A stretch of DNA of 27,660 nucleotides from a bacterium (GTDB lineage Bacteria > BMS3Abin14). The stretch spans positions 522,463-550,122 of the forward strand of contig CP070719.1 of the NCBI GenBank assembly GCA_020350725.1, given 5' to 3'. How positions within the stretch are numbered: the first letter of the stretch is position 1; each line of letters starts with the position of its first letter. Positions 3,312 through 19,847 of this stretch are shown piece by piece. The notes under the pieces are model-generated. The model was not told where the DNA came from and made no database searches. It saw only the letters and a program-made list of their open reading frames with translations. Position numbers and translations under genes: made by a program.

Positions 3312-3427
3312 GGAATATCCCCTCCCCTTTAAGGTCCGCCCGGATCGCAAGGGATTCCTTCGCCAGGGTGGCCCCGGAAAGGTTGACACACAGGCAGAAA
3401 GAAATCAAGGGAGGTAAGAGTAGGATA

Positions 3428-3703
3428 AGTTTCCAGTTTCCGGTTGGGTAACAGCTGTGATTAGTGATTTGTGATCCGTGATTGGTTAACGAATCCAAGG
3501 TCCCAAATCCAAAGTCCAAAAAGGAAAGTTCACGGTTCCCCGTTCGCAGTTGGAAAACGGCCGTGATTGGTGATCCGTGATTCGTGATTCGGTAGCGAAT
3601 CCAAAATCCAAAGTCCAAAAGCCAAAAAGACAGTTCACGGTTTCCGGTTCCCTGTTCACCGTTATAGATTGCTTCACCCGGGCATCGGTTCGCAATGACA
3701 ACC
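3428..3703 (-). repeat. Heptamer repeat island A
   Basis: The region is made of short arrays of 7-nt words: GTGATTA/GTGATTT/GTGATCC/GTGATTG, then AATCCAA/GGTCCCA/AATCCAA/AGTCCAA, then GGAAAG-TTCACGG-TTCCCCG. This GTGATTN, then AATCCAA, then TTCACGG series occurs twice in succession (about 3455-3540 and 3563-3660). Reverse-complemented, the words match those of the islands at 18606, 19401, 21208 and 22901. This island is therefore inverted relative to those four. Confidence 0.85.
3661..3703 (-). repeat. Hairpin-forming interspersed repeat, copy 1
   Basis: This is an inverted-orientation copy of an element of about 44 bp also found at 19624-19667 and 21423-21466. Paired ATTGC (3668-3672) and GCAAT (3692-3696) can form a stem, flanked by GTT/AAC. 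It carries the shared words AGATTGCTTCACCCGGG and GGTTCGCAATGACAACCGC. Confidence 0.7.
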
Positions 3704-3920
3704 GCTTGTTCGCCCCCTCTCCCTCTCGCCCCGCCGCCCCCTCCCATTTCCGCCTCCCCGCGTCCGCTCTTCGCCTGCCCTGCCTGCCGTGAGCTTGTCA
3801 AACGGAGCCTTTCGAAGGGTTCACGGTTGCCGGTTGCCGGGTTCCGGTAGTGCGGACCGGGGAGGAGAGGTTTTACCCTCCAACCGGACCCATCCCAAAA
3901 CCGTAAGCGTCGATCGGTAC

Positions 3921-4074: not shown

Positions 4075-5085
4075 ATGACTGCCGGTAGAAAAGGGATGCG
4101 ATGCATCCGCACTGCCGCGATCCTCGCGGCCGCCACCCTGGTCCTTGCTGTTTCCGTGCTGTCCTGCTCTACCCTGAAGACAAGCCGTCCTCTGGTCCCC
4201 ATGAGGGAATACGAGAAGATGCTGGTCGGTTCCCTCTTTGCCGACTACGTGGGCAACGAGAACTGCCTCAAGGCCTGCCACGTCCACGACCGGAACGCGG
4301 CCTTCCTGGAGAAAAGCGTCCACGGCCAGCAGAGGGTCGAGGGGACCGGTGTGCCGCTGGTGAACTGTGAAACCTGCCACGGCCCGGGAAGTGAGGCCGT
4401 TTCGGCGGACTACATCAACCAGAACAACCAGTGCGACACCAGCAAATTCATACCCATCAGAGAGTTGCCGGCGGCGGCCCAGTCGCTGCTCTGCCTCAAG
4501 TGTCACAGCGCCTATTCTATGGTAAACGTCCAGTTCTGGCAGAACAGTGAGCACGCCATGGCCGAAGTCAGCTGTCCCGATTGCCACAAACTCCACGAGG
4601 GCACGAGGCAGAAGAAACAGGGGCGGGAGATCAACGACCTCTGCTATTCCTGCCACGAGGGGGTGAGAAGCCAGTTTTCGCTCGTCTCCCGGCATCCCCT
4701 TCCCGAGGGGTTGATGCTCTGTTCCGACTGCCACGATCCCCACGGTACGGGCAATCCCGGCCTCCTGATAGCCGCTGACGAGAAGACGCTCTGCGGGAAC
4801 TGTCACGCTCAGGCCATCGGCCCTTACACCTTCGAGCATGCCGATGTCACGGACGAATGCATCACATGCCACAGGGTCCACGGCTCCATGTTCGCGGACA
4901 TGCTGAACTACCAGGAGCCTTTCCTCTGCCTTCAATGCCACACCGGCCACACCGATTTCGGGAGCCCGAGTGCTCCTCGAGCCGGAGTAAAGCAGGCCTT
5001 CTATACCCGGTGCACCAACTGCCACTCCCAGATCCACGGGACCGACACGAGGGGTCCGCATCCGGGCAGCGGCCTGACCCAGTAG
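4075..5085 (+). CDS. Decaheme c-type cytochrome, MtrA/DmsE-like lipoprotein
   Basis: 336 aa with a signal sequence ending in a lipobox-like VLSC (Cys31), so probably a periplasm-side lipoprotein. There are nine CXXCH heme sites (CETCH, CLKCH, CPDCH, CYSCH, CSDCH, CGNCH, CITCH, CLQCH, CTNCH). A tenth, expanded site at residues 64-69, CLKACH, is CX3CH. Ten sites, this length and the following barrel gene fit the MtrA/DmsE/PioA type. These decahemes sit inside an outer-membrane porin and carry electrons between periplasm and cell surface. The start has GAGGAGA about 8 nt upstream. A barrel gene follows after 39 bp. The lipobox is unusual for MtrA homologues, which are mostly soluble. The CX3CH site may or may not bind heme. 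Confidence 0.9.
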   Translation: MTAGRKGMRCIRTAAILAAATLVLAVSVLSCSTLKTSRPLVPMREYEKMLVGSLFADYVGNENCLKACHVHDRNAAFLEKSVHGQQRVEGTGVPLVNCETCHGPGSEAVSADYINQNNQCDTSKFIPIRELPAAAQSLLCLKCHSAYSMVNVQFWQNSEHAMAEVSCPDCHKLHEGTRQKKQGREINDLCYSCHEGVRSQFSLVSRHPLPEGLMLCSDCHDPHGTGNPGLLIAADEKTLCGNCHAQAIGPYTFEHADVTDECITCHRVHGSMFADMLNYQEPFLCLQCHTGHTDFGSPSAPRAGVKQAFYTRCTNCHSQIHGTDTRGPHPGSGLTQ

Positions 5086-5124
5086 AGGGGGAATGGAAGA
5101 GAACGCCTTGACAGGAGCTTTACG

Positions 5125-7029
5125 ATGAGGGGATTACGAGGGTCGGTTGTCAGTGCTGTCCTTTTCTCATCCCTGCTGATCATCCCGGCGGCGCCCGGCG
5201 AGGTTCGGGGGGATGTATCCGACTTCGAGGAGATCGTCGTCGACGTGGAGGATCTCATCGGGTACTTCGGACTCGTTGACTTCGACATCAGTGGCGGCGG
5301 CGAGACGGTCGTCCCGTACGGCACCCTCGATGCCCACGGGACCCTCGGCGGACAATACCTGGTCGGATCGTCCTTCGGGATCCTGGACCTCTCCCTGAAC
5401 TTCAACACCGAGCAGTATTACGATTTTCAAGGTCACCTCCACACGGACGAGGTTGCCGTCGATCTCGATGCCATGCGGTTCCTCAGGAACATAGAACATC
5501 GCAACCTCCCCCTTGCCTCGGACACCTCCGCTGCGCCCCTGTACACCCCGGACGACAGGGATCCAGCCGACGATTACGGGGCGGAGATCGGGGAACAATC
5601 GGTGGAAGCCAGATGGAAGGTGCCGGGCTACCCGGCCCACGTGAGGGTCCTCGCCCGGCAATACACCGTGGAGGGGGAAAGACAGCAGGTCTTTCTCAAC
5701 GAGAACTGCACCACCAATTGCCACAATGTGTCGATGACCAGGAGAGTGGATACTACCACCCGCCAGATGGGGATAGGTGCCGACGCCCACGCCGGTTATG
5801 TGGATATCTCCTATAATTTCAAGGGCACCCGGTTCGAGGACAACGAGCCCGACCCTGTTTTCGGGTACGATCCCATATTTTCGCCCCTGGGCACGATCAG
5901 GGCGGCGACGACCAGTGTCCACAACGCCTATCCCGACATGAAGTCATCCCGGCACGAGCTCCATATCACCACCAACGCCACCGGGCGCTGGACCGGCGGG
6001 ATGGGCTGGACCCTCGGTGAGCGGGAGAACGACGATGCTGACCTCACCGAGGAATTCCGCGGGGTATCCGGATACCTGACCTGGCGGCCCAGCGAGAAAA
6101 TCCTCCTGTCGGCCGATTCGAGGCAGATACTCAGACAGGACGAGGCTCCCCGGGCGGGGTCCCAGGCAGCTCTGGCCAGGATCACCGATGGCCTTCCCCT
6201 GGAGTACGGTACCCTGGAGACGCGCTACCGGGCATCCATGACCTACTACCCAACCCCCGATGTCAAACTCAAGGGGAAGGTCAGTCGGGCAGAGACGGAG
6301 AGGGAGGACGAGGAAAGCTGGGGCCTGCCTGACTGTACCACCACCGACGAATGGGGGATCCTGGGCCGGTTTCGCCTCGGGCGGGGATGGATCTTGCGGG
6401 TCGACCACAACACCAGGGATACCTCGGACCCCGAATATGACACGTCGCCGACGGGCAGCCGCCACTCGATGCTGGAATCGCAGTGGACCCCCCTGCCCAA
6501 CCTGGCGGTGGTGATCGATATAAGGGACATCAGCGACGAGAATACCGACAGCGGGAGGGTCAGCGAGAGGCTCCTGCTGAATGCCGGCGTGACCTATTCC
6601 CCCTCTCCCCCGGTAAACCTAGGTCTTCACCTGTTCAGGTACGAGGACGACGTGGACACCGACCTGACCTTCGATGGGGGCAGCGGGACGATCCTGGCTG
6701 ATCCGGGCGCGCCCTACCGGGCCGAGAGCGATCACCTTCTTTTCCGGATCTCCTGGGCGGCCACGGAAAGCCTCCAACTGACAGGTGCTTTCAGTCACCT
6801 CGACGCTAACGGGTCCTTCCGATCCGAACTGCCCCAGTTCTCGGATGTCGGGGACTACTCCAGGCTGGAGGTGACTCAGGTGGAGTCCTCCCTGGACGTC
6901 CTCTACCGGATGAAGGGCGGATGGAGCCTGACGGGAAGACTGGCACAGCTGGAATACGAGGACAGGGGATCCCTCCGTGAAGACGAAGAGGTCAGGCGGC
7001 TGGCCGCCGTGATCAGCAAGAGGTGGTAG
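5125..7029 (+). CDS. Outer-membrane beta-barrel of a porin-cytochrome complex
   Basis: 634 aa with an N-terminal signal peptide (about residues 1-30). A long series of alternating amphipathic strands follows, and the protein ends in a terminal Trp (ISKRW), a usual outer-membrane barrel signature. Length and position directly after a decaheme cytochrome fit the MtrB/PioB-like or Geobacter OmbB-like porins that house such cytochromes. Family identity is inferred from context and architecture, since these barrels diverge strongly. An odd CTTNCH (CX3CH) motif lies at about residues 197-202 and recalls the expanded first motif of the upstream cytochrome. It may be a redox cysteine pair or a heme site. 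SD AGGAG lies 7 nt before the ATG. The stop is almost contiguous with the next start, implying translational coupling. Confidence 0.8.
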   Translation: MRGLRGSVVSAVLFSSLLIIPAAPGEVRGDVSDFEEIVVDVEDLIGYFGLVDFDISGGGETVVPYGTLDAHGTLGGQYLVGSSFGILDLSLNFNTEQYYDFQGHLHTDEVAVDLDAMRFLRNIEHRNLPLASDTSAAPLYTPDDRDPADDYGAEIGEQSVEARWKVPGYPAHVRVLARQYTVEGERQQVFLNENCTTNCHNVSMTRRVDTTTRQMGIGADAHAGYVDISYNFKGTRFEDNEPDPVFGYDPIFSPLGTIRAATTSVHNAYPDMKSSRHELHITTNATGRWTGGMGWTLGERENDDADLTEEFRGVSGYLTWRPSEKILLSADSRQILRQDEAPRAGSQAALARITDGLPLEYGTLETRYRASMTYYPTPDVKLKGKVSRAETEREDEESWGLPDCTTTDEWGILGRFRLGRGWILRVDHNTRDTSDPEYDTSPTGSRHSMLESQWTPLPNLAVVIDIRDISDENTDSGRVSERLLLNAGVTYSPSPPVNLGLHLFRYEDDVDTDLTFDGGSGTILADPGAPYRAESDHLLFRISWAATESLQLTGAFSHLDANGSFRSELPQFSDVGDYSRLEVTQVESSLDVLYRMKGGWSLTGRLAQLEYEDRGSLREDEEVRRLAAVISKRW

Positions 7030-7030
7030 A

Positions 7031-7999
7031 ATGGGTGAAACCGGGAAAAGAAAACTCCGATCCACCGGAAAAAAATGGTTTGCTCTGGGGCTGATGCTGG
7101 CCCTGTCCGTTCCTTCCCCCAGCCCTGCCGCCGATACCGTAGGGATGATCCTCCCCAGGGACTGTGCCGTCAGTGCCGACGCCAAGGATAAATTCGTCCA
7201 GATGCTCTTCGCCCGGGATATACCCTCCGGGAATGTGGAGGTTTTCGTCCAGAGGCCGGCACCCGACAGGGTGTCCCGCCTCAACAGCGCCAGGAAGTTC
7301 CTCTCCTTCGGGGTGGCGGCTATCGTCATCTGGGGCGGGACCGCGGTCGAGGAGATCCTCAGGGAGTCGGGACGGACACCCGTGGTGTTCGTCGGTGTCT
7401 ACAATCCGGTCAAACAGGGGATCGTCAAGGACCTCAGGGCGCCCGGCAAGAACACGACGGGTGTCGCCTCCACCACGTCGCTGTCCTTTCTCCTGGACAA
7501 CATTCTCGAGGTCGTCGACGACGGTGTCCTGGGGGTGGTCTACCACTCGGACATTACCGACAGCGTGGTCCAGTTCGAGGAGCTCACGTCCCTCGCAGGC
7601 GCGAAGGGGCTCAAAATCCTCTCCGTGGACGTTCTGGGAAGCGATCCAGCAGGGATCTCGGAGGTGCTGGCCCCTGCTCCCTTCCTCTACCTCGCCCAGG
7701 GCTGCTACGTCGAGGATGGCAGCTTCGTCAACATGGAGAAACTGGGCAAACCGGCGGCTACCCAGACCCCCGGCATCACCGGCGGTGGAGTGGTGTTCTC
7801 CCTTGCCCCCGATATAGACGAGATGCTCAATGAAGCTGCCGGGATCACTGCGCGCATTCTCAAGGGCGAAAAGGCGGGCGACATTGAAGTTGTCCGGATG
7901 AAGAAGATCGACTTCGTCATCAACATGGGCGAGGCCAGGGCGATGGAGCTGAAGGTTCCCTTCGCGGTCCTGAACCGGGCGACGAAAGTCATCAAATGA
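7031..7999 (+). CDS. Periplasmic ABC_sub_bind-family binding protein
   Basis: 322 aa with a signal peptide (hydrophobic stretch about residues 18-36, cleavage near PSPAA-D). The fold signature of ABC_sub_bind (PF04392) proteins is seen in TPVVFVGVYNPVKQGIV followed by APGKNTTGVAST. The C-terminal region (ITARILKGEKAGDIEV) is also typical. Family members bind small ligands, often amino acids or related compounds, but the ligand cannot be read from sequence. No permease or ATPase gene is nearby. The start is one base after the barrel stop, with AGGTGG as SD, and a chemoreceptor gene begins 10 bp downstream. I therefore infer a sensory role, presenting a ligand or redox state to that receptor, rather than transport. 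Confidence 0.8.
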   Translation: MGETGKRKLRSTGKKWFALGLMLALSVPSPSPAADTVGMILPRDCAVSADAKDKFVQMLFARDIPSGNVEVFVQRPAPDRVSRLNSARKFLSFGVAAIVIWGGTAVEEILRESGRTPVVFVGVYNPVKQGIVKDLRAPGKNTTGVASTTSLSFLLDNILEVVDDGVLGVVYHSDITDSVVQFEELTSLAGAKGLKILSVDVLGSDPAGISEVLAPAPFLYLAQGCYVEDGSFVNMEKLGKPAATQTPGITGGGVVFSLAPDIDEMLNEAAGITARILKGEKAGDIEVVRMKKIDFVINMGEARAMELKVPFAVLNRATKVIK

Positions 8000-8009
8000 G
8001 GTGGGTCGG

Positions 8010-10103
8010 ATGAGCAATCTCCTCAAGATGGATCTCAGAACCAAGGCGGCCGTTTTCATTGCGGCCATCCTCGTTGTCGTCATGGGACTGTCCACGGCGA
8101 TGCTCACCTCCCAGGCCATCGGGCAGCTGGAGACCGCCCTCCTCAAGTCCTCCATCCTCGTAGGCAGGAATCTCGTCGATGAGATCACCAAAACCATCAG
8201 CATGGGGATCTACCTCAACGAGCTGGAGGGCCTTTCCGACCAGTTGACGACCTCGGTTCAGCAGAATGAGGATCTCGGCTACATATTCATCACCGACTCC
8301 GCGGGAAAGGGCCTTTACAGGAGTGAGGGCGTGGCCAGGTGGGTGGAGGAACGGGCGGCCCCATTCAGGACGGGGACGGGCGGTGAGAAGGCCGAGACGG
8401 TCAACCAGATCCAGGAGGAAAACGTCGGGTACTACAACATCACCCTCGCCATCGCCCCTCAGGGCAAGACGGAGGGTTACCTCCACCTGGGCATGAAGGC
8501 CGAGGTGGTCAAATCCCAGACCAGGGGCATCATCTGGCGCATGCTGCTCATCGGTGTGTCCGGCTTTGTCGTCGCAACCGCCCTCATCATCGTTTTCGTC
8601 AGCAGGGCGATCAGCCGGCCCCTGGGAGGGCTGGCCGACACCGCCCGGGAGATATCGGCGGGCAGGCTGATCCTGCCCGAAAAGGTCCACAGCGGCGACG
8701 AGATCGGGGAGCTGTCAGGTGCCTTCCGGGTCATGGTCCAGAGCCTGACGGATATGATGGGCAGCCTCAGCGGGACCTCGGGAAGCCTGCAGCAGTCCTC
8801 GAGCGAACTGTCGGATGTCGCCCGCAACCTGTCCGGATCCTTCGGCGAGCAGGTCGAGACGCTGGACAGGGTGGCAGCTTCCATCCTCGAGCTGGACGAG
8901 CTCGCCCAGGACCTGTCCCGTCAGGCCCAGCACCTGTCCGACTCGGCCAACGAGTCCTCCTCGTCCATTCTCGAGTCGACATCGGCTCTCGCTGAGATCA
9001 ATCAGAACATGGGCGAGATCAACACCTCCATTGAGAACATCTCATCCTCGGTGATGGAGATGACCTCCACCTTCACCCAGCTGGCCGAGGGAGCGGAGCA
9101 GACGGCCAAACTGGCCGAGGAATCCCGGGAGGCCATCGCCCGCATCAACGAGGGCGTCAAGAACATGGAGGAGATGGTCATTCAGTCGGGCTCCCTCGCC
9201 CAGGATCTGAAGGTCAACGCCCAGGATATCGGAGCGAAGGCCGTCAAGGAGACCCTGAGCGGGATCCTCTCCATCCAGGAGGATGTCAAGAGCTCCGAAC
9301 AGGCCATGAAGGTCCTGAACGAGAGGGTGGACAGCATAGGGGAGATCATCACCGTGATCGAGACGATCGCAGAGCAGACCAATCTCCTCGCCCTCAACGC
9401 AGCCATTATCTCGGCCCAGGCCGGGGAGGAAGGCAAGAGTTTTTCGGTCATCGCCTCCGAGATCAGGGACCTGTCGGCGAGCACCACCGAATCGACAAAG
9501 AAGATCTCGTCCCTCATCAGTTCCGTCCAGCAGGAGGCGAAGAACTACGCCGGGTACGTCTCGAGGGTCACCAAGAGCGTGGAGGAGGGCTACCGCCTCG
9601 GCCAGCAGGCGGAGGCGGCCCTGGAGAAGATCGTCGCTTCGGCCGATGAGTCGGCCGAGATGTCCGGACTCATCGCCCGGGTGACCCGGGAGCAGGCGGA
9701 GGCCAGCGAGAAAGTCTCCAGCAGCGTCAATATCTTCACCGAGAGGGCCGACGAGATTCGGAAGGCGACGTCTGAGGAGGCGGACGCCGCCAAGTTCATC
9801 CGGGAATCGGTGGAAAAGGCCAAGACCATGGTTGAGAGGGTGTACCGGTCGACAGAGGAACAGAACAAGACCAGTCAACTCCTGAACGAGACGGTGATCA
9901 AGGCTGAGGAGATAGCGGGCAGACTGAATGCGGCCACCGAAAAGGAGAAGGAGCTCAGCGGTATGATCGCCGCCGCGGTTGAGGAGATCAAGAGCCAGAG
10001 TCACCAGAACTTCGACGTGGTCAAGAACGTCAACACCTCCTCGGAGATGCTCACCCGGTTGGCGGCCTCCCTGGCGGAGGAACTGAGGAGGTTCGGACAG
10101 TGA
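8010..10103 (+). CDS. Methyl-accepting chemotaxis protein
   Basis: 697 aa. TM1 is at about residues 11-31. A periplasmic sensor region of about 140 residues follows, with a dCache-like or sCache-like YIFITDSAGKGLY strand. TM2 is at about 173-198, then HAMP (ISRPLGGLADTAREI) and a long coiled-coil signalling domain. The CheA/CheW-contacting hairpin tip reads IAEQTNLLALNAAIISAQAG. It differs from the usual AIEAARAGE sequence, a variation also known in deltaproteobacterial receptors. I chose ATG 8010 because GAGGTGG sits 5-6 nt upstream. The GTG at 8001 would overlap that SD. Its place between the conduit porin and outer cytochrome, next to a binding protein, points to energy or electron-acceptor taxis. 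Che genes are not in the window. Confidence 0.93.
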   Translation: MSNLLKMDLRTKAAVFIAAILVVVMGLSTAMLTSQAIGQLETALLKSSILVGRNLVDEITKTISMGIYLNELEGLSDQLTTSVQQNEDLGYIFITDSAGKGLYRSEGVARWVEERAAPFRTGTGGEKAETVNQIQEENVGYYNITLAIAPQGKTEGYLHLGMKAEVVKSQTRGIIWRMLLIGVSGFVVATALIIVFVSRAISRPLGGLADTAREISAGRLILPEKVHSGDEIGELSGAFRVMVQSLTDMMGSLSGTSGSLQQSSSELSDVARNLSGSFGEQVETLDRVAASILELDELAQDLSRQAQHLSDSANESSSSILESTSALAEINQNMGEINTSIENISSSVMEMTSTFTQLAEGAEQTAKLAEESREAIARINEGVKNMEEMVIQSGSLAQDLKVNAQDIGAKAVKETLSGILSIQEDVKSSEQAMKVLNERVDSIGEIITVIETIAEQTNLLALNAAIISAQAGEEGKSFSVIASEIRDLSASTTESTKKISSLISSVQQEAKNYAGYVSRVTKSVEEGYRLGQQAEAALEKIVASADESAEMSGLIARVTREQAEASEKVSSSVNIFTERADEIRKATSEEADAAKFIRESVEKAKTMVERVYRSTEEQNKTSQLLNETVIKAEEIAGRLNAATEKEKELSGMIAAAVEEIKSQSHQNFDVVKNVNTSSEMLTRLAASLAEELRRFGQ

Positions 10104-10110
10104 TACCCCT

Positions 10111-10126
10111 GGGCGCCGCGGCGCCC
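10111..10126. promoter_or_regulatory. Perfect GC palindrome in the MCP-cytochrome gap
   Basis: GGGCGCCGCGGCGCCC is a perfect 16-bp palindrome just after the chemoreceptor stop. It could form a hairpin that attenuates or stabilises the mRNA, or it could be a protein-binding site. There is no T-tract, so it is not a standard intrinsic terminator. Confidence 0.4.
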
Positions 10127-10202
10127 CGCGTGGGACGACACGCTGAGTGCACTCGTCAGGAGGTCATACCCGCGACGGGGATAGACTCAAGGAGTGAGGA
10201 TC

Positions 10203-12404
10203 ATGACCGGTAAGCGGATCGCCTGGTTAGCCACGTTTCTGGCCATTGTCCTGGCTGTTTCGGGCTGTGTCGGCTCTCTGACCGACAGCGACGAGGGAGC
10301 ACCCAACGCGTTCATCCCCAGCAATCTCGGGATGGACGTCTGCTGGACGACGGCCGGCTGCCACGACTCGGCGACGTCATTTGACAACAATCAGATCTAC
10401 AGTGACTGGAGCCAGGCCGGCCATGCCAATGTCCTCAATGTGCCAGACACGAATTTCTTCGGAAATTCACCCGAGAACTGCACGGGATGCCACGACATCA
10501 GCGGCGACAGCGCCAATCTTGGTTACGGAGGGCCCGGCGACACACCAATTAACAGGCCCGTCGTGGGATGTGAGGCCTGTCACGGGGGCGTGGAAAGACA
10601 TTTCAGCAGCTATGTTCCTCCCCCCTATCCCCTCCCTGATTTCGATCGCTGCGGACAGTGTCACAACCAGACCTTCGATACGGTGTCCCACGGCGCACCG
10701 GAGGGGGAGGCCATCGTCGAGAACTACAGGGCCTCGCCCCACTTCAGGTCGGTGAACGATGCCGTGAAGGCCGACGCCAACCGGGCCTTCGCCAGGTGCT
10801 CCAAGTGCCACACCGACAGGGGAGCCAAGGACTACCGGAACGTTTCCGGAGGATACGACACTCTGGTTGCGGCTCTCCCCCGGGACGGGACGGCGGCCAC
10901 CCCGAACATCTTCCCGGCCGAACCGGTCCAGTGCCGGACCTGCCACTTCGGCCACACCCCGGAGGACCTCCTGCTGGGACAGAATGAGAACGTCCCCGGT
11001 TCCTCCGAGTTCAATACCTGCACCAATTGCCACCAGCTTACCGACAGCACCGGCAGCAGGATCCGGGCCTATCACGATCCCGTTGTCAATACCCGGAGCA
11101 GTGTGGAGGAGATCATCACCGACACCCATTTCGGAGAGGCAGGCAGCTTCACCGGGGCCAACGGTGCCAACGTACTGCCTATCGCCGGGTACGTCCTGGA
11201 TGCCAACGACGGCCGGGTGTGCCGGAACTGCCACAACCAGCACAGCGCCGATCTGGCGATCAACCGGCAATGGATCCAGTCGGACCATGCCGACACGACG
11301 GCCCTCGGGGCGTGGGCTCATTACAACTGGAGCGATCGCCCCGACTGTCAGCGGTGCCACACCCTCGCGGGCTATCAGGCCTACGCCGCGGCCAACGCCG
11401 ACGGGGACGACTCGGATTACAGCCCCCCGTTGTCACCCGATCCGAATTACAGGCCGCAGATGCTCTACTGCCACGGCTGCCACGCCGACAACGCCGGCGG
11501 CCTGAACAGCACAGGGCCCATGACCGCAGACTACAGCTATTACTCCGGCTCCACCCAGGTGACCACCGAGAGTTTCGCCTACACCGGCGTGGCAGGATCG
11601 AACCTCTGCATGCCCTGTCACACGGCCCTGCAGAGCGGCGCCACCATCGCCGGCCTCGTCTCGGGCAATGGGGTCAGCGTCAGCTTCAGCAACCAGAGCA
11701 GGATCCAGCCCCACTACCTGGCCGCGGGCGGCGTTCTCTACAGGGGCGTGGGATACGAATACGCCGGTACAATCTACGACGACTATCCGTTCTTCCGCCA
11801 CAACGCCATCGGTATCGCCTACACCGCCGGCCTCGGTGTCGAAGGGCCGTGCATCGGGTGCCACCTGTCGTCACCGGAGAGCCACCTGCTCAGCCCGTTT
11901 TCCCGGGACAGCGGCGGAAGGATCAGCTCTGTCGCCAGCACAGCCTGCGGGGGAAACACCGACTGCCATGTCGGCCAATTTGCCCTGGATGCAGCCGAGT
12001 TGAACGAGGAAGAGGAGAGGTTCCACGAAGCCCTGGACGCCCTCGAGCAGAAACTGGCCACCAACGGCTATTTCTTCGCTCCCAGTTACCCCTATTTCTT
12101 CAACACCTCGGTCCCCGGTCCCCCCTCGACGTGGGTGACGGACTGGCTGTCTCCGGGAGACACCCAGATCGATGGAAGTGTCACGGGCAAGGACAACATG
12201 GGAGCGGCGTTCAACTTCGACCTGCTTCATCATGATCCGGGTGCCTGGGTCCACAACCGGAGATACACCAAACGGCTGATCTTCGATTCCATCGACTGGC
12301 TGGAGGACAACACCCTGGACGGGACGGTGGACCTGTCGGCGTTCCCCGAGGCGGCTGCCTACCTGGACGGCGACCCGGTCACGACCGGCGTGCAGAGACC
12401 CTAG
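10203..12404 (+). CDS. Large multiheme c-type cytochrome, outer-surface lipoprotein
   Basis: 733 aa with a signal peptide and a good lipobox (VSGC). There are eleven CXXCH sites (CTGCH, CEACH, CGQCH, CSKCH, CRTCH, CTNCH, CRNCH, CQRCH, CHGCH, CMPCH, CIGCH). Two CX5CH motifs are also present, CWTTAGCH near the N-terminus and CGGNTDCH near the end of the heme region. Size, lipobox and neighbourhood fit the cell-surface cytochrome of a porin-cytochrome conduit, comparable in role to OmcB or MtrC, passing electrons to external acceptors. The C-terminal 150 residues lack heme motifs. ATG 10203 is preferred because AGGAG lies 8 nt upstream. The in-frame GTG at 10194 would be inside that SD. Whether the CX5CH sites carry heme is unknown. 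Confidence 0.9.
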   Translation: MTGKRIAWLATFLAIVLAVSGCVGSLTDSDEGAPNAFIPSNLGMDVCWTTAGCHDSATSFDNNQIYSDWSQAGHANVLNVPDTNFFGNSPENCTGCHDISGDSANLGYGGPGDTPINRPVVGCEACHGGVERHFSSYVPPPYPLPDFDRCGQCHNQTFDTVSHGAPEGEAIVENYRASPHFRSVNDAVKADANRAFARCSKCHTDRGAKDYRNVSGGYDTLVAALPRDGTAATPNIFPAEPVQCRTCHFGHTPEDLLLGQNENVPGSSEFNTCTNCHQLTDSTGSRIRAYHDPVVNTRSSVEEIITDTHFGEAGSFTGANGANVLPIAGYVLDANDGRVCRNCHNQHSADLAINRQWIQSDHADTTALGAWAHYNWSDRPDCQRCHTLAGYQAYAAANADGDDSDYSPPLSPDPNYRPQMLYCHGCHADNAGGLNSTGPMTADYSYYSGSTQVTTESFAYTGVAGSNLCMPCHTALQSGATIAGLVSGNGVSVSFSNQSRIQPHYLAAGGVLYRGVGYEYAGTIYDDYPFFRHNAIGIAYTAGLGVEGPCIGCHLSSPESHLLSPFSRDSGGRISSVASTACGGNTDCHVGQFALDAAELNEEEERFHEALDALEQKLATNGYFFAPSYPYFFNTSVPGPPSTWVTDWLSPGDTQIDGSVTGKDNMGAAFNFDLLHHDPGAWVHNRRYTKRLIFDSIDWLEDNTLDGTVDLSAFPEAAAYLDGDPVTTGVQRP

Positions 12405-12497: not shown

Positions 12498-12764
12498 ATG
12501 TTAATCTGGCTGATAATCGCGATCGTGCTGGGGTTCCTGGGTATCCTCGAGTATCTCCTGGGATTCTCGGTTCCCTACCCCCTGCTCCGGACCATCATGG
12601 TCTTCCTCATCGTCGTCGGCATGGCATACCGTATCTACTTCATGGAGAAGGACGCCGAGAAGGAGAGGCTCAAGGAGAGGGTCCGGGAACTGGAGGACCG
12701 GGTGCGGGAGTTCGAGATGGGGATGCCGCAGGCCAAGGCCGAATCCGGCGAAAAGGATCTCTGA
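12498..12764 (+). CDS. Small two-span membrane protein with coiled-coil tail
   Basis: 88 aa. Two hydrophobic segments (about residues 2-22 and 29-48) are followed by a highly charged heptad-like helix (KDAEKERLKERVRELEDRVR) and a short acidic end, so the tail is probably cytoplasmic. No family is recognised. The start is well supported by GGAGAGG about 8 nt upstream. It is the last plus-strand gene before a strong intrinsic terminator and lies 93 bp after the surface cytochrome, so it may belong to the conduit transcript or have its own promoter. Confidence 0.75.
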   Translation: MLIWLIIAIVLGFLGILEYLLGFSVPYPLLRTIMVFLIVVGMAYRIYFMEKDAEKERLKERVRELEDRVREFEMGMPQAKAESGEKDL

Positions 12765-12795: not shown

Positions 12796-12822
12796 AGCCG
12801 GCCCCGGGAGGGGCCGGTTTTT
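12796..12822 (+). terminator. Intrinsic terminator
   Basis: CCGGCCCC (12798-12805) pairs perfectly with GGGGCCGG (12810-12817) around a four-base loop and runs directly into TTTTT (12818-12822). It closes the electron-conduit region on the plus strand. The minus strand has no T-tract here, so it acts one way. Confidence 0.92.
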
Positions 12823-12949: not shown

Positions 12950-13891
12950 TCACCTTCTCCCCATCGCCTGTTCATGCAGTTTCATCAGTTCCGGGTTGAC
13001 CATGGATGGCTGAGGGCGGAAGGAGGGATCAAGGCCGTAGGATTCCCGGAGAGCCGCCAGGGCACTGTCCCGGTCCCCGTAGGCAAGGTGGCAGGAAGCC
13101 AGAAGGCGCAGGGCCTCGGGCCGGTCCGCGGAAGATATGCTCCTCTGACCTTCCGCCAGGAGATCCCTGGCCTCACCATAGTCCCCCCTCCGGAAGGCCT
13201 CCTCAGCCTGGATCAGGGTCCTGTCGGGCTTGCGGGATGCGGGAGCCGGTGGGGGCGGTTTTTTCACCGGAGCCGGGGTCGCCGGCTTTGCCGGTGCGGG
13301 TGCCGGCCGCGGCCTTGGCCTTGCAGCCCTGGTAAGGATCAGCGGTATCTTGATCCTTGTCCCGGCGGCGATCCTCGCCGGGTCGTCGATGGCACTCGCC
13401 AGGGCGATGGGCCGGAACTGTTTCGGGTTTCCGTAGTAGGAACCTGCCACGGTGGACAGGCTCTCGCCCCTCCCGAGGCGATAGGGGACCATGACCGGTA
13501 TCCGGATCTTCGTTCCCGCCGGAACGGACTCGGGTCGGGCGATGCCGTTCACGTCAGCGAGAACCTGGTAGAACATGGGGGTGTTCCAGACCCTCTTGGC
13601 TATCAGGCTGAGGCTCTCACCCCGGCCCACCGTCACCCTCTCGGAGAAGGGGAGCCTGATCACGGTCCCAGGCTTGATCCTCTCCGGATCGTCTATCCCG
13701 TTGTAGAGAGCGATGACCGCAAACAGGTCTTTGTCCCCGTAGAAATCCCTGGTGATGGCCGACAGGGACTCTCCCGGCTGTACGGTATGCCTGGCAACTC
13801 CGGCCCAGACGGGTGCCGGTCCCGACAGGATCGTGAGCAGGGAGACGAGAGATGCTGTCCAGAGGATGTTACGGAAAAGGGACACCCTCAT
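12950..13891 (-). CDS. Exported triple-LysM protein with TPR-like C-terminus
   Basis: 313 aa. The signal peptide is at about residues 1-28 (ending PVWAG). Three LysM modules follow at about 32-80, 83-131 and 134-182, each with the PGESLS or GRGESLS motif and an RIP/KIP end. Next come a Pro/Ala/Lys-rich linker (about 187-225) and a helical C-terminus resembling TPR repeats (AEEAFRRGDYGEARDLL and LLASCHLAYGDRDSALAAL). LysM domains bind peptidoglycan, so this is probably a periplasmic wall-associated protein. The ATG at 13891 overlaps the kinase stop (ATGA), so it is translationally coupled to the kinase gene. The longer upstream frame lies inside the kinase gene and lacks a signal peptide. A periplasmic partner or output of the kinase pathway is inferred. 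Confidence 0.85.
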   Translation of the reverse strand: MRVSLFRNILWTASLVSLLTILSGPAPVWAGVARHTVQPGESLSAITRDFYGDKDLFAVIALYNGIDDPERIKPGTVIRLPFSERVTVGRGESLSLIAKRVWNTPMFYQVLADVNGIARPESVPAGTKIRIPVMVPYRLGRGESLSTVAGSYYGNPKQFRPIALASAIDDPARIAAGTRIKIPLILTRAARPRPRPAPAPAKPATPAPVKKPPPPAPASRKPDRTLIQAEEAFRRGDYGEARDLLAEGQRSISSADRPEALRLLASCHLAYGDRDSALAALRESYGLDPSFRPQPSMVNPELMKLHEQAMGRR

Positions 13892-15147
13892 CGGCCCTTC
13901 TCCAGAAAATCCACGGCTATCCTGTGGGGTGTGCCGGGCGAGAGGTCCAGGGTGAAGGTCCTGCTTCCCAGGTGGGGATTCTCCAGGGTCAGGGTATGCC
14001 TTCCGGGAGAAACCGGGAAGGGCAAGGCGGCCGGCGTGTAGCCGAGGGACCGGCCGTCGAGGATGATCTCCGCCCACGGATAGGCCACGATCGTCAGGGG
14101 GACCTGGAGGGACTGAGGAGCCGCGGGAATGCCGGCGGGCTCCCTGGGAGTCTCCCTGGGCCAGGCGAGGAGAAGGATGACGCATGCCGCAAGGGTTACC
14201 CCCGCCAGGATGGAGAACCGGACATACCGGCGGGGCTGAATATCGGTGGTCACCGGTATGGTGGCGTCAGGACTCTCCGAGGCCCTTCCGTCCCTGATGA
14301 GCCTGGCCACCCCCTCCTGAACGGCAAGGGCCCTTCTCGGCAGAGTCCTCCTCAAGGCCGCAGCCATCTCCTCCATGGTGGCAAACCTGCGGTGGGGTTT
14401 CTTCCGCAGGCTCTTCATGATCGTCCGGGACAGGCTTCTGTTGACGGCTGGATTCAGCCGTCGGGGCCGGATGGGCCTTCTCCTGAGGATGGCATGGGTC
14501 AGGGCGACGTCACTGGGGGCTGTAAAGGGCTTGGAACCTGTAGCAGCCTCGTAGAGAACAATTCCCAGGCTGAAGATATCTGAGGCGGGGGTCAGTTCCT
14601 CGCCGCGTATCTGTTCGGGCGACATGTAGGAAGGGGTTCCGATGATCTGTCCTGTCGTGGTCAGGTCTGCCGACCCGGAGACGAATACAATGCCGAAATC
14701 GGCCAGTTTGACATCCCCCTTGGCCGACAGCATGATGTTGCCCGGCTTGACGTCCCGATGGATGATCCCCCTCTCGTGGGCGTAGCTGAGGGCATCGCAC
14801 ACCTTGATGACGATCTGGGCGGCGAGCATGGGATCGACGGCCCCGAACCGGTCAAGGACCTCCTTCAGCTCCAATCCGTCCACGAACTCCATGGCGATGA
14901 AGGCCTTGTTGGTCATCTCCCAGAAGTCGTGGATGGTGATGATGTTCGGGTGATCAAGGGATGCCGCCGCCCGGGCCTCGAGGCGGAACCTCTCGGCGGC
15001 CCTGATGTCAGCGGTGGTCCTCCGGATGTCCAACTCCTTGATGGCAACGACCCTGTCGAGGGACTCCTGGCGGGCTCGGTAGACCACGGCCATACCCCCA
15101 CGACCGATCTCGGCCAGGATCTGATATTTGCCCAGTTTTCTGCTCAT
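13888..15147 (-). CDS. Hanks-type Ser/Thr protein kinase with C-terminal PEGA domain
   Basis: 419 aa. The kinase domain is at about residues 7-270. It has a glycine loop (IGRGGMAVVY), catalytic Lys in VVAIKEL, HRDVKPGN catalytic loop, DFG, and an activation segment with Thr residues (DLTTTGQIIGTPSYMSPEQ). It is therefore an active RD-type kinase by motif. One transmembrane helix follows at about 310-330, then an extracytoplasmic PEGA domain (about 350-412, VAYPWAEIILDGRSLGYTP). Substrates of such kinases are often FHA proteins, and one FHA gene lies 20 bp upstream in the same operon. No obvious SD precedes the ATG, which suggests coupling to that gene. No PP2C phosphatase gene is in the window. 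Confidence 0.93.
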   Translation of the reverse strand: MSRKLGKYQILAEIGRGGMAVVYRARQESLDRVVAIKELDIRRTTADIRAAERFRLEARAAASLDHPNIITIHDFWEMTNKAFIAMEFVDGLELKEVLDRFGAVDPMLAAQIVIKVCDALSYAHERGIIHRDVKPGNIMLSAKGDVKLADFGIVFVSGSADLTTTGQIIGTPSYMSPEQIRGEELTPASDIFSLGIVLYEAATGSKPFTAPSDVALTHAILRRRPIRPRRLNPAVNRSLSRTIMKSLRKKPHRRFATMEEMAAALRRTLPRRALAVQEGVARLIRDGRASESPDATIPVTTDIQPRRYVRFSILAGVTLAACVILLLAWPRETPREPAGIPAAPQSLQVPLTIVAYPWAEIILDGRSLGYTPAALPFPVSPGRHTLTLENPHLGSRTFTLDLSPGTPHRIAVDFLEKGR

Positions 15148-15167
15148 GGATAAAGGGCGGTTGTAGC

Positions 15168-15584
15168 TCAGCCTCCAGATGGGTCCAGAAGGTAGGGATT
15201 GCCGTCGGCGTCCACCAGGAGGAACTGGAGGACCTGTTTTCCGACGGTGATCCTGTCGCCGTGGCGGAGGAGCCTTTTGTCCACAGGCCTGCCGTTGACC
15301 TGAGTCCCATTGGTGCTTCCCATGTCCATAAGGTAGAATTCGGTGCCGAAGGGCTGGAGGGAGGCGTGCCGGCGTGATGCGTCCCGATCATCGAGGGTGA
15401 GGTCGCAATCCTTGCTCCTCCCGATGACGATCCGCCTGTCCGTCGGGAGGGGGTACTGGCTGCCGGCCTTCTCGCCCGTCAGGACAGCGAGGTAGGCTTT
15501 GAGGGCGGGGGGTTTTTTCGGGGCCGCATTCCTCTTGGATATGATCTGCGTGGGATGGAACTCGTCTCTTTCGTCGTTTGCCAT
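15168..15584 (-). CDS. Cytoplasmic FHA-domain protein
   Basis: 138 aa. A roughly 45-residue N-terminal tail with several Thr/Ser (HPTQIISKR) precedes an FHA domain with canonical phosphothreonine-binding motifs VIGRSKDC, ASRRHASL and MGSTNGTQVN. It is a phosphothreonine-reading adaptor, likely phosphorylated by or docking to the kinase encoded 20 bp downstream. I chose ATG 15584 with GAGGGG about 8 nt upstream. The 33 extra residues of the longer frame are unsupported. It is separated from the upstream VWA gene by 277 bp and a terminator, so it probably starts its own transcript. Confidence 0.88.
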   Translation of the reverse strand: MANDERDEFHPTQIISKRNAAPKKPPALKAYLAVLTGEKAGSQYPLPTDRRIVIGRSKDCDLTLDDRDASRRHASLQPFGTEFYLMDMGSTNGTQVNGRPVDKRLLRHGDRITVGKQVLQFLLVDADGNPYLLDPSGG

Positions 15585-15861
15585 GGGTCTGACCCCTCGA
15601 GGGCGATGTTCAGGTTGCGCCTTCGGTGAATGGGTGTCCTGCGAGCCAACAATACTGCTATCATATTTGGCAGATGAGGTCAAAGGGTAGAACGGCTCAA
15701 GGCCAAAGGGGAAGGGTGAGGGCTTCCGATTCGGGGGAAAAGGCTGGTCGAGAGTGGGGAAAGGGGTTGGGAATGTGGGCCGGAAACGGTAAAGGAGCGG
15801 GGTCCCAACGGAGAGCCCCGCCCCTCACTCGACCCTGAAAACTTTTCCTTGGACCTCTACC
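15585..15861. other. Gap between the two FHA gene groups
   Basis: 277 bp without a credible gene. It holds the minus-strand terminator at 15791-15824 and must contain the promoter of the FHA-kinase-LysM operon. I could not identify that promoter with confidence. TTGACC and TATGAT occur on the minus strand around 15664-15688 but their 12-nt spacing is too short. Confidence 0.6.
15791..15824 (-). terminator. Likely terminator after the FHA/VWA gene
   Basis: On the minus strand a nine-pair stem (GGGGCGGGG with CCCCGCTCC, one G-T pair) closes a 13-nt loop and is followed by TTT. It sits 38 bp after the stop of the VWA gene. The T-tract is short, so termination may be partial. Confidence 0.55.
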
Positions 15862-17958
15862 CTATCCTCTGTGAAGGATCGTGGTGTCGCCCCAGGTGAG
15901 GGTTTCGCCCGGGCGGAGCGTCCTCGTCCCCTTTACGGGCTGATTGTTGACGAGTACCGTCTCGCCCCCGATGGTCATGGGGACGGTCCCGCCGCCTTCG
16001 GCCAGGACCCTGGTGATCATGCGCGTGGCCTGGGAAGAGCCCTCCACCAGGAGGACGGGGTCCCGGCTCAGATTGTACTTCGTCAACCGGCCGGCGGCAA
16101 AGAGCCCCGCGGGGCCCAGGAGGGCCAGGAGAAGAAGAACCGGCGACCTCGCCCCCGATGTCCCGTAAAAGGATGCCCTGGGAGAGAAATAGGCACCCTC
16201 AATGGAGAGCTCACCGGAACCGGAGGAGAGGTTCAGCGCCACCGGCACCGCCGCCGCGGCGGTGAGGGGCGAGCGGTAACGGATGAGAACCTCCCTTGAG
16301 ATGTCGTCAGCGAATGCCTCGAAGAGTCTGGCCAGGTCGGAGGGGTTGGACGTGTAGACGCTGGTCCCGCCGGTTTTTCCGGCCATGGTCTCCAGGCGGT
16401 TCCTCCTGGCGTCCGGCCCCAGGCCCACGAAGAGCAGGCTTACCCCACCGTCCTGGGCCGCGAGCAGGGCCTCATCCATGGAGACAATGCCCCGGTTGGC
16501 CATGCCGTCGGTGAGAGTGATGACGACTCTCCTGCCCGGCTGGTTTTCCAACAGGGCTGTGCCCGATCTGATGGCATCGAAAAGGGCCGTGTGGCCGCCG
16601 GCCTTAAGCTCCGATACCTCGCGATAGAGCATGCTGGCGGGTATTCCCTCGGCGATCACTCTGACCTTGTCGCTGAACGAGATCAGGTTGACCCGGGCCG
16701 AGGGATGTATGGACTGGGTGAAACGGAAGATGGCGTCCTTGGCCTCCTGCAATTTGGCGCCGGTCATGCTCCGGCTTGTGTCGACGACAATGGATATCGT
16801 GAGGGGAACGTCCCTCGTCCCCCTCTTCAGATCCCTGACCTCGAGGAGGAGGGCCTCCCGGCCGCCTTCGGACACCTCCATAGTGTGAAAGCGGCCCGGG
16901 CGAAGGCTGCCGGGCAGGGATGCGTAAAGGTCCACCACGGGGAAGCCGGATGCGTCGATCTGGGTTATCCTGGCCTGTTCGTTGTCATCCGCACAGGCGT
17001 TACCCGGAATGGACACCGGACCGGCCAGGACCAGAACGGCCAGACAGAGGACGGTCGCCGCCCGCCCGGTTTTCAGGCCGGCTGCACTCACCCTGAAGAG
17101 GCTTCGGCCGATGCGGATGAGATCTCCGTGGGTAAGGCGTGCCGAGGTTCCGGATATCTTTCGGTCGTTCACCCTGCTTCCGAGAGGAGAGCCCATGTCC
17201 TCTATGACGGGGCCGCTGCTCCGGACAACGATCCTGGCGTGCTTGGGGGCCACACCGGCTTCGGTCAGGCGGACAGGGCAGCTTCCGTGACTTCCGATCA
17301 GGGTGCTCCTCCCTATGGGCAGTTCCGAGCCCCGGCCGGGTCCCTCGAGGATCTGAAGCCGCACGGAGGAGAGGACCCTCTCGGTCCAGGAGATGCCGAA
17401 ACCCATGGCCACTCCAAGGGCGATGAGGCCGAAGACAAGACTGGCCTGACCCATCATGGGCCTGAAGAGCTGCATGATGATGCCCCCCAGAGCACCGCCC
17501 GCCGCCCCCCCTGCGGCCGTCAGGAGCCACCGCGACCGTCTGGATGAGAAAGGCAGGGTGATGGCCGTCCCGACACCGATTCCGGTCAGCGCCCATCCGG
17601 CGCCGGCCCCGAGAGAAAGGGGAACGGCGATGCCGGTGGCTGACCCGCCCACCAGATGCTGGCCCAGTGCGGCAAACGATGTCTGGCCCAGATAGGCTCC
17701 CGCGGCCCCTCCCAGGGCGCCCAGGGAGCCTGAAGCGAGAATCCGGTAGAAAAAACGATCCCGCATCTGTGTCCACAGCTGTTCGAAGGCCGTCAGAAAG
17801 CCCGCGATGGTGCCGCCGAGGATGGAGCCGAAAAGCAGGCTGGTAGGCCCCCTGCTCAGGGGAAGGGAAAGGATCAGGCCAAGGGGAAATGCGGCGCACA
17901 GAGCAGCGCTGGCCCCGACAAGGCCCATCCGGAGGTTCCTGTTTCCGATGGCTTTCAT
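15862..17958 (-). CDS. Membrane protein with FHA, VWA and C-terminal FHA-like domains
   Basis: 698 aa. The N-terminus (about 10-190) is a glycine-rich block of several membrane spans. An FHA-like domain follows at about 198-292, then a hydrophobic segment at 300-317. Next is an extracytoplasmic VWA domain at about 385-555 with an intact MIDAS (DTSRS at 393-397, Thr457, Asp484). Another span lies at about 606-623. The tail (635-698) resembles the second half of an FHA domain (VNNQPVKGTRTLRPGETLTWGD). The first FHA lacks key residues: IGS for GR, APKH for SRRH, SPLGS for STNGT. It probably does not read phosphothreonine in the normal way. ATG 17958 overlaps the upstream stop (ATGA). The ligand of the VWA domain is unknown. 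The architecture suggests a transmembrane assembly or sensor in the kinase pathway. Confidence 0.85.
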   Translation of the reverse strand: MKAIGNRNLRMGLVGASAALCAAFPLGLILSLPLSRGPTSLLFGSILGGTIAGFLTAFEQLWTQMRDRFFYRILASGSLGALGGAAGAYLGQTSFAALGQHLVGGSATGIAVPLSLGAGAGWALTGIGVGTAITLPFSSRRSRWLLTAAGGAAGGALGGIIMQLFRPMMGQASLVFGLIALGVAMGFGISWTERVLSSVRLQILEGPGRGSELPIGRSTLIGSHGSCPVRLTEAGVAPKHARIVVRSSGPVIEDMGSPLGSRVNDRKISGTSARLTHGDLIRIGRSLFRVSAAGLKTGRAATVLCLAVLVLAGPVSIPGNACADDNEQARITQIDASGFPVVDLYASLPGSLRPGRFHTMEVSEGGREALLLEVRDLKRGTRDVPLTISIVVDTSRSMTGAKLQEAKDAIFRFTQSIHPSARVNLISFSDKVRVIAEGIPASMLYREVSELKAGGHTALFDAIRSGTALLENQPGRRVVITLTDGMANRGIVSMDEALLAAQDGGVSLLFVGLGPDARRNRLETMAGKTGGTSVYTSNPSDLARLFEAFADDISREVLIRYRSPLTAAAAVPVALNLSSGSGELSIEGAYFSPRASFYGTSGARSPVLLLLALLGPAGLFAAGRLTKYNLSRDPVLLVEGSSQATRMITRVLAEGGGTVPMTIGGETVLVNNQPVKGTRTLRPGETLTWGDTTILHRG

Positions 17959-18392
17959 ACCGTTCCCCCTTCCGGCTGTCCGCGGTGGAACACGGCCTTC
18001 AGGCGGCCCAGATAGATGGTGTCGCCCTCGGCCAGCGTCACCTTTTCGCCCGGCTGGATCCTCTCCCGGTTGACGATGGTTCCGTTCGTACTGCCCAGGT
18101 CCTGAAGGCGGAATTCGTCCTCGAGGCACTCAATGATGAGGTGACGGCGGGAGACACCCAGTTCGTGTCCGCCGTGGACAGCGAGGTCCACGTCAGGGTG
18201 GATGCTCTCCGATGGGTCCAGCCGTCCAAAAAGGGTCTCCTCTCCGAAAAGGTCGAGGCGGCTCCCGTCCTCCAGGGAGAGGTAGGCGGCCGGTCCTGCT
18301 GCCAGAGCCGCCTCCGCATCCTCCTCCGCGCACTCCGGACAGTTTTTCATCCCCTTTTCCAGTTCCATTTGACATTTCGGGCACTCGTTCAT
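17955..18392 (-). CDS. Zinc-ribbon plus FHA-domain protein
   Basis: 145 aa. The N-terminal two-CXXC zinc ribbon (CPKC at 4-7, CPEC at 18-21) precedes an FHA domain with canonical motifs LFGRLDP, VSRRHLII and LGSTNGTIVN. It is probably a cytoplasmic phosphothreonine-binding adaptor. ATG 18392 has a strong GGAGGTGG SD about 4 nt upstream. The longer frame start is not supported. First gene of a two-gene unit, it overlaps the FHA/VWA gene by 4 bp. A TGGC-N7-TTGC sigma54 promoter candidate lies about 50 bp upstream. Confidence 0.9.
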   Translation of the reverse strand: MNECPKCQMELEKGMKNCPECAEEDAEAALAAGPAAYLSLEDGSRLDLFGEETLFGRLDPSESIHPDVDLAVHGGHELGVSRRHLIIECLEDEFRLQDLGSTNGTIVNRERIQPGEKVTLAEGDTIYLGRLKAVFHRGQPEGGTV

Positions 18393-18439
18393 GGTCCACC
18401 TCCGAATTTGAATTCTGGTCTCATTCCGATGATCACAGG

Positions 18440-18454
18440 GCAAGAAGGGGGCCA
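18440..18454 (-). promoter_or_regulatory. Candidate sigma54 (-24/-12) promoter
   Basis: Read on the minus strand, TGGC (18454-18451) is followed after exactly 7 nt by TTGC (18443-18440), the invariant core of sigma54 promoters. Transcription would start near 18429 and give a leader of about 37 nt before the zinc-ribbon/FHA start at 18392. A GAFTGA-containing sigma54 activator with an FHA domain is encoded 1.4 kb away at 19824-21101, which strengthens the call. Confidence 0.6.
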
Positions 18455-18605
18455 GAATTGCAGAGGGTAAAGTGAAAAGAAGAAAGTGAGAAAAAACAGC
18501 GAGTTAGACTGACATGCCAAAAGAAAACCTGCCCTCTCGACCCCGGGTAAAGCGTTTGGAAATTGGACGGGTGTTCGGGGATAGGACAGACGCAGGGAGA
18601 AATAA

Positions 18606-18960
18606 GTCCAGAGTCCAGGGTCCAGCGTCCAGAGGGGGCGAAGAGCGGACGCGGGGACGCGGGGACACGGAAATGCGAGGGGGTGAAGGAGGAAGGATAT
18701 ATAGTGCTAAGAGATAAGTGATAAGAGATAAGTCTACTGAGCTGTTAGTTATCACATATCGCTTAATTCTTAGGACTCAGCTCTCAGTTCCCGGTTCTCA
18801 GCTCTCCTTTCTTCAAACCTGAGAACCAGGTTTTCGAATCACCAATCACGAATCACCAATCACGGAAGTTAAATTTTGGATTTTGGATTCGTTTCCGAAT
18901 CACTAATCACGAGTCACAAATCACGGCTTTTTTTTACTGGAAACTGTGAACCGTCTTTAC
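18606..18960 (+). repeat. Heptamer repeat island C
   Basis: The 720-bp gap between the divergent genes at 18392 and 19113 is mostly this island. In order it has GTCCAGA/GTCCAGG/GTCCAGC/GTCCAGA, then GACGCGGG units, GATAAGT/GATAAGA/GATAAGT, CTCAGCT/CTCAGTT/CCCGGTT/CTCAGCT, and GAATCAC/CAATCAC arrays. TTTTGGA words, a second GAATCAC/TAATCAC/GAGTCAC/AAATCAC array and ACTGTGAACCGT close it. The block from GTCCAGA to GAATCAC is nearly colinear with island F (22901-23290). No gene is seen inside it. Confidence 0.9.
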
Positions 18961-19112
18961 CTGATTAAAGTGGCCCCTTTCCGTTAATTGTGGTAGCTTT
19001 CAGCGGACGCTGCCGTGGGTCGACGCATCTCCTCCACGGCCCTTGCCTTATACTCAGAGGAGACGATCCCGGGTCCGAAGCCGGGCCTGAAGAGAATGCG
19101 AGGGAGATATAT

Positions 19113-19364
19113 ATGAGCGACGATCGGATAAAATTCGAAGAGTGCCCCGTGTGCTCCGGCTGCCACGAGTTCGTCCTGGATGTCCATCGCAAATCCATCC
19201 AGGTCGTCATCTCGCCGGACAGGGAGACCGATACCGCCTTTACCAAAGCCGACGTGTTGTTCACCTGTCCCGATAAGGACCAGACATTCGAAGCGGAGGT
19301 CACCCTCCTCCACAGGCCTTACGAATACATCAAGTCGGTGGAGGTCAAATCCGAGGACGACTGA
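19113..19364 (+). CDS. Small soluble Cys-containing protein, unrecognised
   Basis: 83 aa. No signal peptide or membrane span is visible. An N-terminal CPVCSGCH cluster and a lone Cys in FTCPDKDQ suggest a small metal-binding (zinc-like) domain. The rest is beta-rich and acidic, ending KSEDD. CSGCH matches a heme motif by letter, but without an export signal heme attachment is unlikely. ATG 19113 has GAGGGAG 6-7 nt upstream. The longer upstream frame is unsupported. The gene stands alone, flanked on both sides by heptamer islands in the same orientation. Function unknown. Confidence 0.7.
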   Translation: MSDDRIKFEECPVCSGCHEFVLDVHRKSIQVVISPDRETDTAFTKADVLFTCPDKDQTFEAEVTLLHRPYEYIKSVEVKSEDD

Positions 19365-19400
19365 GCCGGAATAATGTCGGCAGGGAGACCGAGAGGCTAG

Positions 19401-19770: not shown

Positions 19771-19799
19771 CCTTTGGATTTCGTGCCCAGAATCTGGGA

Positions 19800-19847
19800 T
19801 CAGATCCTGTACTGCTTCATCTTTCAGATCCTGTACTGCTTCATCTT
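19800..19847. repeat. 24-bp perfect tandem duplication at a gene 3' end
   Basis: Bases 19800-19823 and 19824-19847 are identical. Read on the minus strand each copy encodes K-M-K-Q-Y-R-I-stop, so the last eight codons of the sigma54-activator gene, stop included, are duplicated directly after the real stop. Confidence 0.95.

Follow-up and report, generated by a model that had tools for sequence, protein, structure and literature searches.

The predicted conduit and its sensing genes

We analysed a window of 27,660 nucleotides (C1:522463-550122 of a 2.78-Mb single-contig bacterial genome), in which five open reading frames (ORFs) at positions 4075-12404, all on the + strand, encode a predicted porin-cytochrome conduit together with a periplasmic binding protein and a chemoreceptor of the methyl-accepting chemotaxis protein (MCP) type. 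An earlier, sequence-only reading had described a complete conduit with built-in receptor and binding protein, and all five ORFs were confirmed with the positions, domains and order that it gave. The intergenic gaps are 39, 1, 10 and 99 bp in gene order; the separations of 1 and 10 bp reported before are exact. The genes are:

4075-5085, + strand: MtrA-like periplasmic decaheme lipoprotein (TIGR03508; nine CxxCH motifs and a CX3CH first haem)
5125-7029, + strand: MtrB/PioB (GSU2204)-like outer-membrane beta-barrel (match weak for the window protein, firm for its relatives)
7031-7999, + strand: PF04392 periplasmic binding protein with signal peptide and type I binding-protein fold (PF04392 score and structure model)
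8010-10103, + strand: chemoreceptor with a transmembrane segment, a Cache-type domain, a second transmembrane segment, HAMP and an MCP signalling domain (Pfam domains and structure model)
10203-12404, + strand: surface-type MtrC-like multihaem lipoprotein (PF22113, lipobox, 11 CxxCH and two CX5CH motifs)

The decaheme protein has the lipobox VLSC, and its CX3CH motif is CLKACH at residue 64. It passes the cut-off of the NCBIfam family TIGR03508 of DmsE-family decahemes (238.1 bits, cut-off 192.2) and stays under that of the OmcK/GSU2203 family NF041028 (225.9 bits, cut-off 325). The barrel, which ends in an aromatic residue (...KRW), matches MtrB_PioB (PF11854) with an E-value of 0.011, under the gathering threshold; the same profile matches 8 of the 17 aligned barrel homologues, with a best E-value of 1.2e-14. 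Against the GSU2204 family NF041027 the barrel scores 102.4 bits (E 2.6e-29), under the cut-off of 350. The surface cytochrome, with the lipobox VSGC, passes the MtrC/MtrF domain II/IV profile PF22113 (47.1 bits, cut-off 30), and its two CX5CH motifs stand where homologues carry CxxCH. Searches of the PDB by phmmer with the barrel and the surface cytochrome gave no matches. By these motifs and scores, the three proteins resemble the MtrCAB wire across the outer membrane.

MtrCAB and PioAB of Shewanella and phototrophs likewise combine a decaheme with an MtrB-like barrel, placed within it or adjacent, and Mtr adds an MtrC-like surface lipoprotein. Unlike those systems, the window decaheme has a CX3CH first haem and the unit has a built-in binding protein and receptor. 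The nearest curated families, NF041028 and NF041027, point to the OmcKL-type conduit of Geobacter and HotSeep-1 (GSU2203/GSU2204; PMC4070692, PMC10553843). The window proteins differ in scoring under both cut-offs, and the portions of these papers accessible to us mention no binding protein or receptor with OmcKL; they report OmcK of G. sulfurreducens (GSU2203) together with GSU2204 as up-regulated on hematite and magnetite (PMC4070692). The sequence-only reading had held that conduits are not usually described with a receptor inside the unit. We likewise found no description of a conduit with this built-in pair in the literature searched, which covered few subscription papers and preprints.

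The binding protein passes PF04392 (73.3 bits, cut-off 25.9) and is encoded by the sole PF04392 gene of the genome. No permease or ATPase gene adjoins it in the window, as noted previously. With 60.8 bits against TrpX, far under the cut-off of 390, it does not classify as part of a TrpX importer. Its structure model (pLDDT 88) resembles aromatic-amino-acid binders and the ribose-binding-protein fold, with template modelling scores of 0.80-0.81 to 3lkv and to the tryptophan-bound 3lft. A search of named genomes with the binding protein gave only weak matches, in Hyphomicrobiales/Rhizobium.

We place the start of the chemoreceptor at ATG 8010, with GTG 8001 as an alternative. HAMP (PF00672) and MCPsignal (PF00015) are above their cut-offs, and a periplasmic sensor of the single-Cache type lies between the two transmembrane segments, at about residues 35-176. 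The sensor model is Cache-like and matches WalK, CitA, DctB and LuxQ (Z about 10). The signalling domain is long, with an IIxAQAGE tip and about 216 residues from HAMP to the tip, which is near the 64H class (about 32 heptads per arm) as estimated from arm length alone.

Conservation in the family and across phyla

Among the genomes searched, the nearest relatives of the source family (f1) outside that family are related at the level of the same domain only, and the source phylum seems to hold f1 as its one family. The full five-gene order is present in three further family members (G002, G004, G008). The assembly of G001 has it in two parts, at 1.75 Mb (decaheme and first part of the barrel) and at 1.06 Mb (barrel end, binding protein, receptor and surface cytochrome). 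In G011, where the binding protein is a fragment, the end of a contig interrupts it. Identity to the window proteins is 63-67% for the decaheme, 60-62% for the receptor and 52-56% for the binding protein (54-57% in the search that found it in G001, G002, G004 and G008). The barrel, at 40-41%, and the surface cytochrome, at 27-32%, are less well kept than the sensing genes. The gaps of 1 bp and of 8-14 bp are conserved as well. Searches found no barrel, decaheme or conduit-type binding protein in G003, G005, G006, G007, G009 and G010, with only a transporter-type PF04392 protein in G005; no family genome was found to have the conduit without the binding protein and receptor. From this comparison the five-gene grouping is judged to be conserved and not accidental.

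Outside the family, profile searches were made with the barrel and the decaheme, and the neighbourhoods of the matches were read. At 21 loci, from 20 genomes in at least five phyla, the decaheme has nine CxxCH motifs and CX3CH as the motif of its first haem. Wherever such a locus could be read through, a PF04392 gene follows the barrel within -7 to +21 bp; the loci that could not be read through are G001, split by the assembly, and G728, where the binding-protein gene runs off the contig. The CX3CH first haem is common to all decaheme homologues linked to the binding protein. Related decahemes with ten CxxCH motifs (G032, G094, G108, G179, G246, G317) have the barrel, and none of the six has the binding protein.

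The gene after the binding protein varies. The order decaheme, barrel, binding protein and receptor recurs in G296, G286, G733, G585 and one copy in G729, the receptor sensor passing the cut-off of sCache_3_2 in two of them (G296, G729) and being only weakly CHASE4-like in G585. In the second G729 copy a surface cytochrome stands between binding protein and receptor. A small response regulator follows in four genomes (G319, G409, G650, G726), and a phosphonate-type binding protein with a histidine kinase in G684. The kinase (L090:3442-4932) carries a CxxCH motif in the predicted periplasmic part of its sensor, and it is possibly a redox sensor that uses haem, adjacent to the conduit. In G370, G509 and G627 the neighbourhoods read showed no signalling gene after the binding protein; in G149 and G728 the contigs end too early for the following gene to be read.

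What is new is a rule, by which a CX3CH decaheme is followed by a barrel and a PF04392 protein and then by an exchangeable signalling gene. The core, as read from these gene orders, is conduit plus binding protein, with a signalling output that may be a chemoreceptor, a histidine kinase, a response regulator or none. The layout noticed in the window holds up within f1 and, in part, in other phyla: the binding protein is constant there, and the receptor is kept at some loci and replaced or absent at others.

Decaheme and binding-protein distances correlate with r 0.91 over 19 pairs and 0.81 over 11 distant pairs (p 0.0002), and binding-protein and receptor distances with r 0.96; in neither comparison is shared genome ancestry removed (Mantel test). 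The decaheme and binding-protein trees have their main groups in common. By these measures the binding protein is co-inherited with the decaheme.

One candidate counterexample, a decaheme without binding protein in G158 (L092 6229-6918, - strand), was rejected: a CX3CH decaheme is present there as its first half only, joined in frame to the tail end of the same MCP, and a tilS-like gene lies alongside, as it does in the phylum-mate G296. This arrangement is read as a collapsed cassette, formerly present and lost by deletion or assembly error.

Two further observations concern the conduit proteins. The window surface cytochrome is nearer to its counterparts in G729 (41%) and G627 (39%), members of other groups, than to those in f1 (about 31%), as if this position of the unit were open to exchange and the four inner genes were retained. 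The barrel carries a motif ENC[TA]T[NQ]CH (CX3CH) at residues 191-200, in the window ENCTTNCH, which is invariant in f1 and G627; other barrels have CxxCH or nothing at this position. Judged by the motif, the barrel might bind a further haem.

Five residues of the binding protein (P76, S82, N85, G102, Q181) are constant in 19 of 19 conduit-linked proteins and occur in 0, 0, 0, 1 and 1 of 10 other PF04392 rows, respectively; some of these ten rows are duplicates of one gene, and most adjoin an ABC permease. The conduit proteins, on alignment evidence, form a specialised PF04392 subfamily. In the type I binding-protein fold class the region of the second strand borders the ligand cleft. P76-N85 come directly after that strand in the predicted fold, so the conduit proteins plausibly bind a different ligand from other PF04392 proteins.

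The binding protein could instead be a structural or assembly part (a chaperone, a plug or a docking platform for decaheme and barrel) or deliver a ligand imported by the barrel, with the receptor as a secondary passenger. Its constancy next to an exchangeable or missing signalling gene, its co-inheritance with the decaheme and the retention of the signature residues in the three genomes without a receptor gene (G370, G509, G627) all fit this explanation. We nevertheless hold it to be rather unlikely: the ten-CxxCH relatives manage their decaheme-barrel pair without the binding protein, and Cache MCPs, a CHASE4-like MCP, a histidine kinase and response regulators recur after it across phyla, which is hard to explain by passengers.

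Signalling output and proposed mechanism

Four MCPs were found in the genome, and two CheA systems. The window receptor and two others have long arms (about 216 residues) and an II[SA]AQAG tip; the receptor of the che cluster at 1.96 Mb is short and unlike that of the window. A CheA-CheW-CheR-CheB cluster at 1.475-1.485 Mb has no MCP of its own and is a plausible partner of the window receptor.

The sequence-only reading suggested a receptor for taxis towards extracellular electron acceptors, taken here first in the sense of swimming. The presence of receptor and conduit in one unit favours this, as does Shewanella, in which congregation at minerals and insoluble acceptors correlates with mtrBC/omcA and with the Cache MCP SO_2240 (PMC5789149). 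There, too, a Cache receptor works with an Mtr conduit at minerals; unlike here, the host is flagellated and the receptor gene lies outside the mtr cluster (SO_2240 vs SO_1776-1779). Searches for FliG in nine family genomes, the complete genome of the window and eight relatives, returned weak partial matches only. The weak FliG_C match in the source genome was rejected, being the N domain of an MgtE magnesium transporter, and by this search the genome does not qualify for flagellar chemotaxis. PilB and PilT are encoded side by side.

Non-flagellar precedents exist. The Esn network of Geobacter (EsnA MCP, CheW, CheA and a diguanylate cyclase) acts on electrode colonisation, probably via c-di-GMP, and is required on electrodes and not on Fe(III) oxide (PMC5585712); 64H MCPs occur also in Desulfuromonas strains without flagella (PMC8235581). 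Esn resembles the window system as a chemosensory array tied to extracellular respiration and not to swimming, and differs in that EsnA is of the 40H class, has no periplasmic sensor and lies outside any conduit unit (PMC5585712). The lack of FliG, the pilus genes and these precedents together make swimming taxis unlikely as an output, and the swimming explanation as a whole improbable. The conduit-linked sensing that it contained stays plausible. The output is more likely to be movement by pili, attachment or gene expression, and pilus-driven taxis is possible.

We propose that this porin-cytochrome conduit, whose decaheme is of an MtrA subtype with CX3CH first haem, carries its own periplasmic sensing module. 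The binding protein would either dock on the conduit or capture a small molecule linked to conduit use, such as an electron shuttle or something that extracellular respiration produces. Once loaded, it would engage the Cache domain of the receptor as LuxP engages LuxQ, and the receptor would modulate a CheA/CheW pathway that drives no flagella. In this way the cell could tune its attachment, its biofilm, its c-di-GMP or its movement by type IV pili to the availability of an extracellular electron partner. Gene content and order, their conservation, the residue signature and the lack of FliG are observations; the ligand, the contact between binding protein and receptor, the pathway and the physiological output are inferred.

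LuxP/LuxQ likewise pairs a type I periplasmic binding protein with a PAS/Cache-type receptor, and the predicted folds are compatible. LuxQ differs in being a histidine kinase, and the contact in the window is a putative one. To the proposal that binding protein and receptor act in a LuxP/LuxQ-like manner, reporting a conduit ligand to a non-flagellar chemosensory pathway, we give about an even chance. Several points weigh against it. LuxQ-like folds are common among Cache sensors, which makes the analogy weak as evidence, and the sensor model has moderate confidence (pLDDT 76). The binding protein may have another role, structural or in transport, as the three genomes without a signalling gene suggest. 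The distance correlations retain whole-genome shared ancestry. Metal reduction and electron uptake both fit as the direction of electron flow, and ligand, contact and shared transcript are putative.

A further explanation is co-regulation only, in which the receptor is made alongside the conduit and senses an unrelated nutrient such as an aromatic amino acid. The nearest solved relatives of the binding protein include tryptophan- and phenylalanine-bound proteins, and a single-domain protein of the same fold group, RmSBP, is encoded near an MCP gene in Rhodothermus (PMC10805632). RmSBP shares the TrpX-type fold and the proximity to an MCP with the window protein; unlike the latter, it lacks one of the two lobes, and no cytochrome is mentioned with it (PMC10805632). 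The invariance of the conduit-linked proteins at five positions where other PF04392 proteins differ, and a tie to one decaheme subtype that is too strict for a generic nutrient, make co-regulation quite improbable.

The LuxP/LuxQ-like proposal can be widened, more tentatively and somewhat doubtfully, to a cross-phylum class of self-reporting conduits, in which an obligatory, specialised binding protein would link signalling outputs that are interchangeable to conduit use or to a redox shuttle held in common. It is an open question how cells sense an electron acceptor that is solid or distant and unable to diffuse to a receptor. The present findings suggest direct sensing, in some bacteria, of the way in which their conduit is used or of the partner with which it is used. 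As a receptor and binding protein accompany one conduit subtype through several phyla, they are a directly testable candidate. The invariant residues and the constant presence of the binding protein by one decaheme type indicate a common ligand, which could be sought among shuttles (quinones, flavins, humic-like compounds) or metal chelates.

Transcription and neighbouring sequence

Two further features lie beyond the surface cytochrome:

12498-12764, + strand: small membrane/coiled-coil protein of 88 amino acids, a candidate member and possible last gene of the transcript
12796-12819, + strand: intrinsic-terminator-like stem-loop with T tail, the probable end of the unit (consensus match only)

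A terminator scan of the + strand found no intrinsic-terminator-like site between the genes, its matches falling within ORFs, and among stem-loops followed by a T tail the one at 12796-12819, beyond the small ORF, is the strongest. Co-transcription is therefore likely, with the five genes predicted on one transcript. A sigma-70 scan returned as many sites as in shuffled sequence and is uninformative on promoters.

Upstream of the conduit, the intergenic stretch 3420-3840 contains many degenerate direct repeats of the types gattcgtgattcggt and ccggttgccggt, spotted by eye. On the other side, the adjoining region 13888-21272 (- strand) encodes a Ser/Thr kinase, identified by domain search, together with several FHA-type ORFs, a VWA/FHA protein and an FHA-sigma54 activator, recognised by eye from the translations; it is a possible kinase-FHA signalling cluster beside the conduit.

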